Of a stretch of 64,000 bases of DNA, positions 20,660 to 33,373 are shown piece after piece. Position numbers and translations under genes: made by a program. Numbering within the stretch: position 1 is the stretch's first letter; the number at the start of each line of letters is the position of its first letter. The notes below the pieces were generated by a model. It was not told the DNA's origin, ran no database searches, and was given only the letters and a program-made list of their open reading frames with translations. The DNA is from Chloroflexota bacterium (GTDB taxonomy: Bacteria; Chloroflexota; UBA6077; JACCZL01), in contig JADZEM010000166.1 in the NCBI GenBank assembly GCA_020850535.1, forward strand, positions 1 to 64,000, written 5' to 3'.

Positions 20660-20740
20660 CGGGACGTCGTGGCGGCGACGGGCGCTCTGCGGAACGAGCG
20701 GCGCGATCTCCTCCCCGACGAGGCCGAGCTGAGGGGCACC

Positions 20741-21832
20741 GTGCGCGCCGACAAACTGGTCAGATCGCTGCTGAGGCTCAACGTCGGGCGGCGGTCCCTG
20801 CTGCGGACTGGCGTCAAACTCGGGACGGTTGCCCCGCTCGCGGCGGTGGCCGGCTGCGCGCCAGCCTTCCCGAAGCTCGCCCAGCCAGCCGTCCTGCCGA
20901 CGGCCCCAGGTGCAGCCGTCGGCGTCCACAGCATGGCCCACGTCACCGAGCTTGCGCCGGGCGTCGTGCCCGGGTTGCCTCGGCAGGCGCCGGCGCCAGG
21001 CTGGGCCGCCCGCGCCCCGGCCGAGATCCTGACCGCCTTCGACTACGGCCGGGTCTCGCAGCTGCCGGGCGGCCAGACGCTGCGCGAGTACACCTTCATC
21101 GCCCAGGAAACCGAGATCGAGGTCGCGAAGGGCGTCATGTTCCCGGCCTGGACCTACAACGGCAGCGTGCCCGGCCCGACGATCCGCTGCACCGAGGGCG
21201 ACCGGGTCCGGATCTACTTCCAGAACGGCACCCGCCACCCGCACACCATCCACCTGCACGGCGTCCACCCGGCCAGCATGGATGGCGTCTTCGAGCAGGT
21301 GCCGCCGGGCCACAGCTACACCTACGAGTTCGACGCCGATCCGTGGGGGCTGTTCCCCTACCACTGCCACACCATGCCGATCCGCAAGCACATCGAGAAG
21401 GGGCTGTACGGGACGATGATCGTCGATCCGCCGACGCCCCGCGAGCCGGCCCACGAGCTGGTGATGGTGATGAACGGCTTCGACACCGACGTGGACGGCG
21501 AGAACGAGGTCTACACCGTCAACGGCGTCGCCAACTACTTCAACGAGCATCCCATCGAGTTGAAGGTGGGCGCGCTGGTACGGGTCTACCTCTCCAACAT
21601 GACCGAGTTCGACCCGATCAACTCGTTCCACCTGCACGGCAACATGTTCAAGCTGTACCGCAGCGGCACCAGCACCACGAACCCTGAGCTGACGGACACC
21701 GTGATGCTCTGCCAGGGCGAACGGGCCGTGCTGGAGTTCCGCTACAAATACCCGGGCAAGTTCATGTTCCACGCCCACCAGAGTGAGTTCGCGGAGCTGG
21801 GCTGGATGGGCTTCTTCGACGTGAAAGCGTAG
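20741..21832 (+). CDS. Two-domain multicopper oxidase (Tat lipoprotein)
   Basis: 363 residues from GTG 20741 (GAGGGG just upstream; normal-length Tat n-region). GTG 20669 is an alternative. The signal has GRRSLLRTG and lipobox VAGC. Copper ligands: HTIHLHG and YHCHTMPIRKH in domain 1, FHLHGN and FMFHAH in domain 2. The type 1 Cys is in domain 1, followed by His at +8, with Leu (HIEKGL) at the axial position where nitrite reductase has Met. Domain 2 has Ala in place of Cys (HAH). Four HxH pairs imply a trinuclear site between subunits, i.e. a type C two-domain oxidase. The ZIP permease follows after 7 bp, which suggests metal oxidation coupled to uptake. Confidence 0.9.
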   Translation: MRADKLVRSLLRLNVGRRSLLRTGVKLGTVAPLAAVAGCAPAFPKLAQPAVLPTAPGAAVGVHSMAHVTELAPGVVPGLPRQAPAPGWAARAPAEILTAFDYGRVSQLPGGQTLREYTFIAQETEIEVAKGVMFPAWTYNGSVPGPTIRCTEGDRVRIYFQNGTRHPHTIHLHGVHPASMDGVFEQVPPGHSYTYEFDADPWGLFPYHCHTMPIRKHIEKGLYGTMIVDPPTPREPAHELVMVMNGFDTDVDGENEVYTVNGVANYFNEHPIELKVGALVRVYLSNMTEFDPINSFHLHGNMFKLYRSGTSTTNPELTDTVMLCQGERAVLEFRYKYPGKFMFHAHQSEFAELGWMGFFDVKA

Positions 21833-29807: not shown

Positions 29808-31544
29808 TCAGCGGAACAGCATCGGGATGCCGCTCAGCTCGATCCACGAGTAGCCGTACAGCGCGATGAACAGCATCAGGAAGAGCAGCGCCAGCACCAG
29901 CGTGCCCGGCACCTCGAACGCGCCGGCGTGGGCAGCCGCCGGGTGATCCTCTGACCCGCCTGCCACCAGGGCCGGCATCGGTGCAAACGCCTCTGGCGAG
30001 ACGTAGCCCAGGTCCGGCGTCGCGGTGCGCGTCCCCAGAAAGACCGTGCCCACAATCGAGAGCACGAACATCGCGCCGCCGGTGACGGCGATGATCGCGC
30101 CAATGCCCATGATCGCCAGGAAGATCGTCGGCTCGGCGCTGCCCGCCAGCAGGTTGATCCCGAGCGGGCCAGTCGAGCTGAACGTGACGTCCCAGTGCCG
30201 GCGTGGCAGGCCCCAGTGGCCGGCCAGCCCCATGCCGATGCAGAGGACCGTCATCCCGAAGCCGTAGACCCACGGCTGCGCCTTGACCATGGCCGGCAGC
30301 ATCATCTGGCGCTGGAAAACCAGCGGCACCAGGTAGTACGAGATGCCCATGAAGGCGGCGGTGGTCCCGGCCACCACCGTCATGTGGAAGTGGGCGGGGA
30401 CGATCAGCGTGTTGTGGGCCAGCAGGTTCGCCTGTGGGCCGCCCATGATGACGCCGCTGATGCCGCCGAAGACGCCGAACAGCACGAGGCTCACGGCCAG
30501 CGACGCGAAGCCCGGCTCGCCCCACGGCACGTTCCGCAGCCAGCCGAACAGCCCGTTGCTGAGACCGCGCTCGCGCATCGCAAGCTCGACGGCCGCCGGG
30601 ATGCTGAACGCGTGGATCAGGCTCGCCATCACCGCCGCGTACATGAAGTAGCTCGTGTTCAGGTTGCGGACCCACGGCGCGATGCCCGGATCGGCCAGCA
30701 GGTGGTGCATCGACCCCATCTGGATGAACAGCACGTACAGGACGATGGCGACGCGGCTCAGCCCCTCGTTGACGGGCTTCGCGCCGACCGTGAGGCTGGC
30801 CAGGGCGTACCAGATGCCGATCATCGCCGCGAGGTTCACCTGCTGCGCGCCGTGGCCCAGGCCCCAGTAGAGCAGCCGGTAGACGCCCGGGTCCGGCGGA
30901 CCGATCAGCCCGAGACTCCAGAGGAACGCCGGGATGAGCGCCGCCGCGCCTGCCGCGAGGCTCCAGAGGGCCAGGATCGCCGCCGCCAGCAGTGCGAACG
31001 TGAACAGCGGCAGCGTCCCGACATCCCCGCGCCGCCGCGCAGCGATGACGTTGACGAAGAAGTGGACGACGGCGACGATCGCGCCGACGGCGAAGACCAG
31101 CACCGCGCCGTAGTAGGTCGGCGGGGCCAGCAGCGGCGGATACGACGTGAACATCACCGTGGCGCGACCGGTGAGCATCAGCAGCATCGCCACAAGTGAG
31201 CCGCCGAGCATCATCGCATAGGCGATCCAGCCGACAATCGGTGCGACCATCCGCGCGCTCAGGAGGACGGTGCTGGCGAAAATGAGTCCTGCGACCTCGA
31301 AGAACAAGATCCAGAAGATCAGCATCACCATGCCGTGGGTCGAGAGCAGCTCATAGAACGTGTTGACCGGCAGCAGATGGACCCACTGCCAGCGCGTCAG
31401 GGCGATGAGCAGCGCCAGGATGCCGCCGATGGCCAGGTAGACCACCGCCGTCACCGCGTGCGCCATGATCTGATGTTCGGCTGAACGGTCCACCACCAGA
31501 TCGGTGACCTGGCAGCGCCGCCCAAACGTGAGACTTGCCTGCAT
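29808..31544 (-). CDS. B-family heme-copper oxidase subunit I lacking the active-site Tyr (NOR-like)
   Basis: 578 residues from ATG 31544; AAAGGG lies 6 nt before it, while the earlier ATG 31550 abuts the site. About 13 helices. B-family (ba3) signatures: MHHLLADPG (CuB ligands His280, His281) and NTLIVPAHFHMTV (heme ligands His385, His387). Helix VI reads WGLGHGAQQVN: His231 is kept, but the residue four places on, Tyr in all oxygen reductases, is Gln235. Loss of that Tyr is a mark of NO reductases in this superfamily. A CuA subunit II lies upstream. Function as NO reductase is inferred; oxygen reduction of the usual kind seems unlikely. Confidence 0.85.
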   Translation of the reverse strand: MQASLTFGRRCQVTDLVVDRSAEHQIMAHAVTAVVYLAIGGILALLIALTRWQWVHLLPVNTFYELLSTHGMVMLIFWILFFEVAGLIFASTVLLSARMVAPIVGWIAYAMMLGGSLVAMLLMLTGRATVMFTSYPPLLAPPTYYGAVLVFAVGAIVAVVHFFVNVIAARRRGDVGTLPLFTFALLAAAILALWSLAAGAAALIPAFLWSLGLIGPPDPGVYRLLYWGLGHGAQQVNLAAMIGIWYALASLTVGAKPVNEGLSRVAIVLYVLFIQMGSMHHLLADPGIAPWVRNLNTSYFMYAAVMASLIHAFSIPAAVELAMRERGLSNGLFGWLRNVPWGEPGFASLAVSLVLFGVFGGISGVIMGGPQANLLAHNTLIVPAHFHMTVVAGTTAAFMGISYYLVPLVFQRQMMLPAMVKAQPWVYGFGMTVLCIGMGLAGHWGLPRRHWDVTFSSTGPLGINLLAGSAEPTIFLAIMGIGAIIAVTGGAMFVLSIVGTVFLGTRTATPDLGYVSPEAFAPMPALVAGGSEDHPAAAHAGAFEVPGTLVLALLFLMLFIALYGYSWIELSGIPMLFR

Positions 31545-31568
31545 GGACATCCCTTTCTGTGTGGTGCG

Positions 31569-32123
31569 TCAGTCCTTGACGATGACCCGGCCGAGCATCA
31601 GGTGGTGGCCCAGGCCGCAATACTCATTGCAGACCACCGGAAACTCGCCACTGCGCTCAGGCGTGATCTGAACGACGGTGATGTAGCCCGGCAGCACCTG
31701 GTAGTTCAGGCTGCGCGGCCCGAAGACCAGCGAGAAGCCGTGCTGGAGATCGCGGCTCGACAGCAGCAAGCGGTACTGCTTGCCGCGCTGCAGCTGCAGG
31801 AACGGCCGCCAGGAGAAGGCGGCGGCTTCCAGGTAGGCGTCGCCGCCGGCCGGCGCGGCTACGACGGGCACGCCCGCGATCTCCCCGACCTTGTTGGCGG
31901 CCGTAAACGCTTCGACCTTGTCGTGGAAGGTGGCGGGATCGACGCGGTAGGCCTGGATGTCGTTGTCGCGAGCGCCGATGGCCGGCCAGATGAAGACGAT
32001 CATGGCGAACATCGCCAGACCCCAGATCACCACCAGCCCGACCCAGAGCCGCTCATCTCTTCCCAGGGACTGCCACCACGCCCCGCGCGGCTTGACCAGA
32101 CTACTGACCCGAACGGCCATCAT
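31569..32123 (-). CDS. Heme-copper oxidase subunit II with CuA site
   Basis: 184 residues from ATG 32123, with AGGGAG about 6 nt upstream. One N-terminal helix (residues 25-48) anchors a cupredoxin domain. CuA ligands are all present: His in SRDLQHGFSLVFG, and Cys-x-Glu-x-Cys-Gly-x-x-His-x-x-Met in VVCNEYCGLGHHLM. It accepts electrons from a periplasmic cytochrome c or copper protein and passes them to subunit I. It is short, as in ba3-type enzymes. The subunit I gene begins 25 bp further on. An intact CuA means the partner is electrically wired from outside, unlike cNOR. Confidence 0.93.
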   Translation of the reverse strand: MMAVRVSSLVKPRGAWWQSLGRDERLWVGLVVIWGLAMFAMIVFIWPAIGARDNDIQAYRVDPATFHDKVEAFTAANKVGEIAGVPVVAAPAGGDAYLEAAAFSWRPFLQLQRGKQYRLLLSSRDLQHGFSLVFGPRSLNYQVLPGYITVVQITPERSGEFPVVCNEYCGLGHHLMLGRVIVKD

Positions 32124-32178
32124 CGTGCTCCCTGGCGAGCGCCGTCAGGGCGGCGCGTGTGGTGTGGTCGGCGCGCGC

Positions 32179-32346
32179 TCACGGCGTGAACACCGGAACG
32201 CTGGTCAGGCTGAGCAGCCCCAGCACGATGTAGAAAACTGTCGGAATGATCAGGCCAGCGACGGTGATGAGAAAGATGTCGTCCAGAAACCGCTGCTGCC
32301 AGGGTGTGCGCGCTGCGCTCCGAGTGGCAGGCGTGTCGTCCGGCAT
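32179..32346 (-). CDS. 55-residue single-helix membrane peptide of the oxidase cluster
   Basis: Found by reading the minus strand between subunit II and ctaG. ATG 32346 follows AAGGGGGGAATCT; the frame ends TGA at 32179. It has a soluble N-terminal part (PDDTPATRSAARTPWQQRF), then a hydrophobic helix from about residue 23 to 48 (IFLITVAGLIIPTVFYIVLG). Size, topology and place match the small IIa-type subunit of ba3 oxidases, though no sequence family could be confirmed. It lies 55 bp upstream of subunit II, probably in one transcript. Confidence 0.7.
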   Translation of the reverse strand: MPDDTPATRSAARTPWQQRFLDDIFLITVAGLIIPTVFYIVLGLLSLTSVPVFTP

Positions 32347-32584
32347 AGATTCCCCCCTTCGGGCCGGCCGTCCTGCACGTCATCGGCAGGCGGCGTCTCC
32401 TCGTCTAGGCGAGGCGGCCACCAGATAGAAACAGGGTGCCAGCGGTGGCGACTGGACACCCCACTCAAACGGGTGGTCTTGTTCACGAAGCATGGGTAGG
32501 ATTGTCCCGGCGCGGCGCTCGTATGACGCGTCAGTGCGTCGCGAGGCGGGTCGGGACTGGCCGACTCGCTCGGAGGATTCGCAG

Positions 32585-33373
32585 TCAGCGGGCTGCGAAG
32601 GACCTCGAGCGGGTGCGGCTGACGAGGGCGCCAAGCATCACGGCAGCATAGAACAGTCCCCCAGCGATCCACATCACCAGGCCGCCGCGCCGCTGATCTT
32701 CTGCGGCGGTGATGCCCCATTCCGTCGCGGAGACGGCGTAGCCAGGGTACCACACTGCGCCAGACAGCGCGAGGGTCGCACCGAGCATATCGCAGACCAT
32801 CCAGGTGGCAAACAGCACCAGCAGCGTGCCTTCGAGCGAGAGGCGCGCGTGCCGTGGCGTGGCCGGATCCAGCAGGATCAGCCAGAACAGTGCCGATGGC
32901 AGCAGGAACGTCAGGTGCTCCAGATCGTGCAGCACCTGGTTGGCGAGCGCAGCCTCGTAGAGCGTCGGCAGGTGCCACACGACGAGCGGCACGTTGAGCG
33001 CGACGGCCAGGATCAACGGGTGCGCGGCGATCGCCAGCGCGATGCGCACCCCCCGCGACTCGACCCCGAGACGAGCTAGTGCTTGCCGCTGCGCGGGGGA
33101 GAACAGGGCCATCCCGACATACAGCGGCTGACCACAGGCCACCAGCGGCGGCACGACGATGGTGAGCAGCATGTGCTGGACCATGTGCGCCCAGAAGAGC
33201 GCATGGGCCAGGCTGTCGAGCGGGCCGGACAGGGCCGCGCCGAGCACGCCAAGCCCGCCGAGGAACGCCCCGATCCGCCAGCCGGCCGGGCGGCGGCGTC
33301 GGCCCGCCGAGCGCAGCGCGTAGGCGTACCCAAGCGCCACCAGCACGACGATCCAGGCCGGTCCGACGTTCAC
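32585..33373 (-). CDS. ctaG: Cytochrome oxidase assembly factor CtaG (caa3 type)
   Basis: 262 residues, seven helices. The family signature is WAHMVQHMLLTIVVPPLVA, with paired His residues (HMVQHML) and later HDLEHLTFLLP. Bacterial caa3_CtaG proteins are thought to insert copper (CuA or CuB) into oxidase subunits. Its place at the head of the cluster, some 240 bp before the small peptide, supports a role in assembling this copper enzyme. It starts at GTG 33373 with a weak ribosome site. The 240-bp gap shows no gene and could hold a second promoter. Confidence 0.9.
   Translation of the reverse strand: MNVGPAWIVVLVALGYAYALRSAGRRRRPAGWRIGAFLGGLGVLGAALSGPLDSLAHALFWAHMVQHMLLTIVVPPLVACGQPLYVGMALFSPAQRQALARLGVESRGVRIALAIAAHPLILAVALNVPLVVWHLPTLYEAALANQVLHDLEHLTFLLPSALFWLILLDPATPRHARLSLEGTLLVLFATWMVCDMLGATLALSGAVWYPGYAVSATEWGITAAEDQRRGGLVMWIAGGLFYAAVMLGALVSRTRSRSFAAR

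Follow-up and report, generated by a model that had tools for sequence, protein, structure and literature searches.

Positions 1 to 64,000 of contig JADZEM010000166.1 from a Chloroflexota bacterium (assembly GCA_020850535.1), i.e. the stretch of 64,000 nucleotides analysed here and termed the window, contain a cluster of four genes, which encode subunit I (SUI) and subunit II (SUII) of a heme-copper enzyme, a copper-insertion factor, and a small membrane protein (Table 1). In all likelihood this cluster encodes eNOR, a heme-copper enzyme that reduces nitric oxide (NO), and its product very probably turns NO into nitrous oxide (N2O). eNOR is an already known kind of enzyme, of which the cluster is a further member. 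The genes for SUI, SUII and CtaG were recovered as open reading frames (ORFs) with the boundaries and the minus-strand orientation given in the first-pass annotation, which had listed these three genes correctly and overlooked the ORF for the 55-residue membrane protein.

In the Pfam analysis SUI matched COX1 with 197 bits and CtaG matched Caa3_CtaG with 177 bits, while SUII fell narrowly under the cut-off for COX2 (20.4 vs 22 bits). The CuA ligands of SUII, a His in "LQHGFS" followed by CNEYCGLGHHLM, make up the complete CuA site that had been claimed for it (H...CNEYCGLGHHLM). The gene of this CuA-type cupredoxin lies directly upstream of the SUI gene, as in the two-subunit layout of eNOR. 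Counterparts of the 55-residue protein precede SUII in Thermomicrobia relatives and in the other eNOR loci examined, and this protein probably serves as a third subunit, comparable to subunit IIa of ba3 oxidases; CtaG is located upstream of the cluster in the Thermomicrobia relatives too. Both proteins are members of the cluster.

Table 1. Features of the predicted eNOR cluster in the window.
Feature	Position	Strand	Basis
Subunit I, predicted eNOR catalytic subunit, COX1 fold, 580 residues	29808-31550	minus	ORF list and Pfam COX1
Gln236-Gln237 codons (CAG CAG), helix VI; Gln237 in the place of ba3 Tyr237	30840-30845	minus	alignment
His233, CuB ligand, helix VI	30852-30854	minus	alignment
His282-His283, CuB ligands	30702-30707	minus	alignment
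His387-Phe-His389, high-spin heme proximal ligand and low-spin heme ligand	30384-30392	minus	alignment
His72, helix II, the other low-spin heme ligand	31335-31337	minus	alignment
Subunit II, 184 residues, one transmembrane anchor and cupredoxin domain, complete CuA site (H...CxExCxxxHxxM)	31569-32123	minus	
55-residue single-span membrane protein, between CtaG and SUII	32179-32346	minus	ORF and loci of relatives
CtaG-type copper-insertion factor, 262 residues	32585-33373	minus	Pfam Caa3_CtaG

Helix VI of SUI reads GLGHGAQQVNLAAM and contains the motif GLGHGAQQVN. With the ATG at 31550 taken as residue 1, the site consists of H233, Q236, Q237, H282, H283, H387 and H389; the first-pass annotation had identified the histidines and the Gln correctly, but its numbers (H231, Q235, H280, H281, H385, H387) are two too low, as they were counted from the second ATG, two residues after the one at 31550. 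The numbering of helix VI coincides by chance with that of the Thermus thermophilus ba3 oxidase (His233, Tyr237). In the alignment with ba3 all heme and CuB ligands of SUI are kept, and because the stretch between His233 and Gln237 aligns without gaps to ba3 His233-Tyr237, the match of Gln237 to Tyr237 is unambiguous, which bears out the earlier observation that Gln stands in place of the cross-linked Tyr. Gln236 and Gln237 are present in all 57 sampled members of the clade that includes SUI, and Val and Tyr in all 15 ba3-type sequences; the Gln-Gln pair at this site is not a matter of chance, nor is Gln237 a local loss. The missing Tyr, taken alone, could also indicate a decaying or non-functional oxidase gene, an explanation of practically negligible probability, given that the reading frames are intact, the metal ligands are all kept, the site is common to relatives at 71% identity, and the Gln pair does not vary from phylum to phylum.

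Invariant residues of the Gln clade without a counterpart in the Tyr clade include, besides Q236 and Q237, also N239, H313, N298, Y301 and E85. As to the ba3 K-path, the Gln clade has Y248 and S310 without exception and S/T316 commonly, while Y244 is changed to Val or Ile and T312 to His. The predicted enzyme shares with the T. thermophilus ba3 oxidase (PDB 1EHK, 1XME) the fold, the heme and CuB ligands, and CuA, but differs from it by the replacements Tyr237Gln, Val236Gln, Trp239Asn, Tyr244Ile and Thr312His, at about 24-30% identity. The AlphaFold model of SUI (mean pLDDT 88.6, pTM 0.90) has ba3-type and related terminal oxidases as its top PDB matches (7deg, 1xme). Such a ba3-like fold with B-type oxidases as best matches, together with CuA, the kept part of the K-path and the conserved Tyr248, Tyr272, Tyr301 and Tyr304, could also be expected of a Tyr-less oxygen reductase that still uses O2, maybe at a slow rate when oxygen is low, with another residue giving the fourth electron. 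We regard this as very unlikely. All four conserved Tyr residues lie off the helix VI cross-link position as judged from the alignment only, and the check for a replacement Tyr proposed in the first-pass annotation, carried out on the same alignment, found none at that position. The active-site Tyr of C-family oxidases is located six residues before the helix VII His, whereas Tyr272 is ten residues ahead of His282. Moreover, the host possesses a separate intact ba3 (HPIVY) and three A-family oxidases, and the Gln clade associates with nir genes, which ba3 does not.

A search of 101 related genomes returned two kinds of hits, one with about 46-51% identity and the motif GH..QQ[VI]N, and the other with about 30% identity and mostly the ba3 motif GHP.VYFW. 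In a profile search of 400 genomes of the phylum, proteins of the Gln type scored 549-964 bits and all others at most 301 bits. Among named records the Gln type is found in Chloroflexota, Pseudomonadota, Nitrospirota, Spirochaetota, Bacteroidota, Actinomycetota, Deinococcota and others, and it is present also in plasmid records of Thermomicrobium roseum (70% identical), Thermus thermophilus and Defluviimonas. Plasmid hits from Variovorax, Janthinobacterium and Mesorhizobium, considered as candidates for other Tyr-less NO reductases (NORs), have Tyr at the site and were rejected. In a tree of 75 proteins, calculated quickly, without bootstrap and with long branches between the groups, the 57 Gln rows make up a single clade with a support of 100 in the Shimodaira-Hasegawa-like approximate likelihood ratio test (SH-aLRT) and the 15 Tyr rows form another (95). 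Placement of the window SUI inside the O2-reducing ba3 clade, a check suggested in the first-pass annotation, was rejected by the approximately unbiased (AU) test (p-AU 8.6e-9), which shares the caution that applies to the tree.

eNOR is one of four biochemically characterised families of NORs (PMC11388526). The Tyr site is occupied differently from family to family (Table A4, PMC8756737): oxygen reductases have the Tyr itself, cNOR and qNOR a Glu, gNOR an Asp, both sNOR and CuANor (bNOR) an Asn, and eNOR, for which one proton channel is predicted, a Gln. SUI has Gln in place of the Tyr that in ba3 oxygen reductases is cross-linked to the CuB His of helix VI; instead of the Glu and the NorC heme c subunit or fused quinol domain of cNOR and qNOR, we found Gln and a CuA-containing SUII; and the site is occupied neither by the Asn of sNOR and bNOR nor by the Asp of gNOR. 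The earlier proposal of a CuA-dependent, Tyr-less NOR-like clade is thus supported and, by the Gln marker, narrowed to eNOR. With eNOR the cluster has in common the B-family-like SUI with Gln at the cross-link site, the CuA-containing SUII directly upstream, the association with NirK or NirS, and what may be a partial K-type path. Hemp and Gennis reportedly described eNOR in Archaea in 2008. Defined by this Gln, eNOR is found in Chloroflexi, Proteobacteria, Thermus and Rhodothermus (PMC8756737). The bNOR (CuANOR) of Bacillus azotoformans is likewise a CuA-dependent, B-family-related NO reductase, but it has Asn at the active site where the window has Gln (PMC8756737), and bNOR comes so far from Bacillota only (PMC11388526). 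Membership in another Tyr-less family (bNOR, sNOR, gNOR, nNOR) or in an undescribed one has some room left by the tree, which was calculated without reference sequences of these four families, but we give it little credit: the published residues are Asn for sNOR and CuANor and Asp for gNOR, with Gln in eNOR only (PMC8756737), and the spread of the clade over Chloroflexi, Proteobacteria, Thermus and Actinobacteria agrees with the published spread of eNOR.

Genomic neighborhoods were analysed up to about 8 kb from the gene at 80 named loci, 20 loci of the phylum and 20 control loci of ba3. NirS-like genes occur near the Gln gene at up to 17 of the 80 named loci, three of them weak or partial, and NirK at 3/80 named and 2/20 phylum loci; neither NirS nor NirK was found near any of the 20 control loci. 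In a genome of the phylum sample (G107), whose SUI is, like that of the window, a member of the Gln family (hidden Markov model E-value 1.3e-265), the genes for NirK, the small protein, SUII and SUI are consecutive on one strand, in agreement with the published operon shared by eNOR and NirK in Ardenticatena maritima (PMC4653789). In a genome from the window's own order (G012), the NirK gene shares contig and strand with the small-SUII-SUI genes and lies about 3.5 kb upstream of them. The homologue on a T. thermophilus plasmid has a nitrite reductase gene and a cytochrome P460 gene nearby, and a short way downstream of it are genes for an Rrf2 regulator and a DUF542 protein. At the level of whole genomes, NirK or NirS was detected in 20 of the 28 phylum genomes with the Gln gene and in 41 of the 372 without it (Fisher p 3e-12, a value inflated by kinship, which the test ignores; most of the genomes with the Gln gene belong to families f20 and f52), while genomes with ba3 only show no link with nir genes (p 0.30).

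The inflated p value is among the points that weigh against the assignment as eNOR and its supposed role. No nir gene was detected in 8 of the 28 genomes with the Gln gene, and none adjoins the cluster in the window, the NirK of the host being encoded on another contig (C98). The characterised eNOR of Rhodothermus marinus lies outside the alignment and the tree. Finally, respiration with NO is uncertain for a host without NosZ and without a full NarG hit.

The host genome is a draft of 7.65 Mb with 4.6% estimated contamination. Besides the window SUI, its COX1-family genes encode an ordinary ba3 on contig C109 (GHPIVYFW) and three A-family oxidases, with no cNOR or qNOR among them; a sixth, weak match is an NnrS-like protein. 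The NirK gene on contig C98 (360 bits, above the curated cut-off) is located beside a cupredoxin gene. Searches for NirS and NosZ in the host gave short weak matches only, and for NarG no match above the cut-off was obtained. Because NirK, the NnrS-like protein and the predicted eNOR are present and NosZ was not found, the host likely encodes a route from nitrite via NO to N2O, without a detected N2O reductase. The window also encodes, on the plus strand (20669-21832) and 8 kb from the cluster, a distantly NirK-like two-domain multicopper oxidase, which matches TIGR02376 with 82 bits, under the cut-off.

The enzyme would reduce two molecules of NO to N2O, with electrons passing from a presumed donor to CuA of SUII, then to the low-spin heme and to the heme-CuB centre of SUI. 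In oxygen reductases the His-Tyr cross-link gives an electron and a proton for the splitting of O2; NO reduction does not require this cross-link. The pocket of SUI appears remodelled, with Gln237 at the Tyr site and the invariant Gln236, Asn239 and His313. Because the K-path remnants Tyr248, Ser310 and Ser316 are kept, protons probably still come from the cytoplasmic side, in line with the proposal made for eNOR, and CtaG would insert copper. In the host NirK would make NO from nitrite and eNOR would make N2O, in respiration or detoxification, while O2 would be handled by the separate Tyr-containing ba3 oxidase. A purely defensive NO scavenger, protecting the cell and its heme-copper oxidases from NO produced by NirK or by neighbours, is a role we consider possible, if tentative. 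It differs from respiratory NO reduction by eNOR in role only, and the likelihoods given to the two are not mutually exclusive. A scavenger would agree with the NnrS of the host, with the failure to find NosZ and a full NarG hit there, and with the location of related clusters near hemerythrin-like proteins, an Rrf2 regulator and DUF542; CuA-linked and probably electrogenic enzymes, however, suit energy conservation, and several relatives lie in operons with NirK.

As to the origin of the cluster, the window SUI is nearest to genes of the Thermomicrobiaceae type (about 71% identity), whereas the Gln-type SUI of G012, from the window's own order, is 47% identical to it and belongs to another sub-clade. 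The suspicion that the window contig is a contamination is countered by its Fhs gene, which follows the host order (67-69% identity to genomes of that order). For this draft genome with its 4.6% estimated contamination, horizontal transfer from a Thermomicrobia-like donor is the probable and simplest reading of the origin of SUI. The window SUI bears a signature of the Thermomicrobia type: together with its Thermomicrobia relatives it has Pro at position 372, a site with Glu in 41 of 57 relatives, and, ahead of the proximal His, Ala386 in place of the Gly of most relatives. The cluster also adjoins CtaG, while many proteobacterial loci have CyoE, SCO and a cytochrome b-type gene instead. That the Thermomicrobia-type eNORs (those of the window, T. 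roseum, HR28 and relatives), with Glu372Pro near the heme propionates and Ala386, form a functionally distinct variant that has spread horizontally between Chloroflexota orders is a doubtful conjecture; if true, the variant could differ, for example, in proton coupling or NO affinity.

The T. roseum plasmid gene TRD_RS10985 (WP_012643264.1) shares with the window 70% identity, the motif GHGAQQVN and the small-SUII-SUI order, but is followed by a gene for heme O synthase, which is absent beside the window cluster. It is annotated as cbb3-type cytochrome c oxidase subunit I, although its active site is that of neither cbb3 nor an O2 reductase. The eNOR subunits L025:8980-10710 and L026:8947-10677 carry the public name "cbb3-type cytochrome c oxidase subunit I", likely a misannotation. 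eNOR-type genes are routinely annotated as cytochrome c oxidase (in the T. roseum, Defluviimonas and Thermus records), and the potential for N2O, the product of eNOR and a greenhouse gas, is therefore overlooked in many bacteria of soils and hot springs, Chloroflexota among them; the host genome itself, with its active site unread, would count as one without NO reductase. The natural variants of the clade (Gln-Gln, His313, Glu or Pro at 372) could serve to test the origin of NORs from oxygen reductases.

The loci of relatives contain several additional proteins and variants. A large protein with cytochrome b, 4Fe-4S and FlpD domains (L063:5921-8035) has similar frames near many eNOR loci; a seed derived from it matches 55/80 named eNOR loci and also 3/20 ba3 loci, and proteins of this type may be an electron donor on the quinol side. 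A second heme-copper-like protein, in which helix VI has GH[IV]xQ[FY] and a HYHG motif is present, was found near eNOR clusters at no fewer than 10 of the 80 named loci, and two relatives belonging to the class of the window have it as well (e.g. L053:2321-3694, L088:3974-5371, L105:9673-11697, and frames of about 500 residues at L185 and L188); the L053 and L088 proteins lack the CuB His-His of helix VII, and the L105 protein is fused to a SCO1-like domain. In the T. thermophilus plasmid members (L027:11998-13680, L028:11998-13683, L218:2998-4683) HFH is replaced by HFK, the low-spin heme ligand being changed from His to Lys in all three Thermus members looked at. A COX1-like protein from a genome of the same class (G022, L024:873-2711) possesses Tyr at the cross-link site (FHVNHY), with Tyr-His for His-His and PGYFH for PGHFH, and to judge from these motifs it seems to have lost the proximal ligand of the heme as well as one ligand of CuB.

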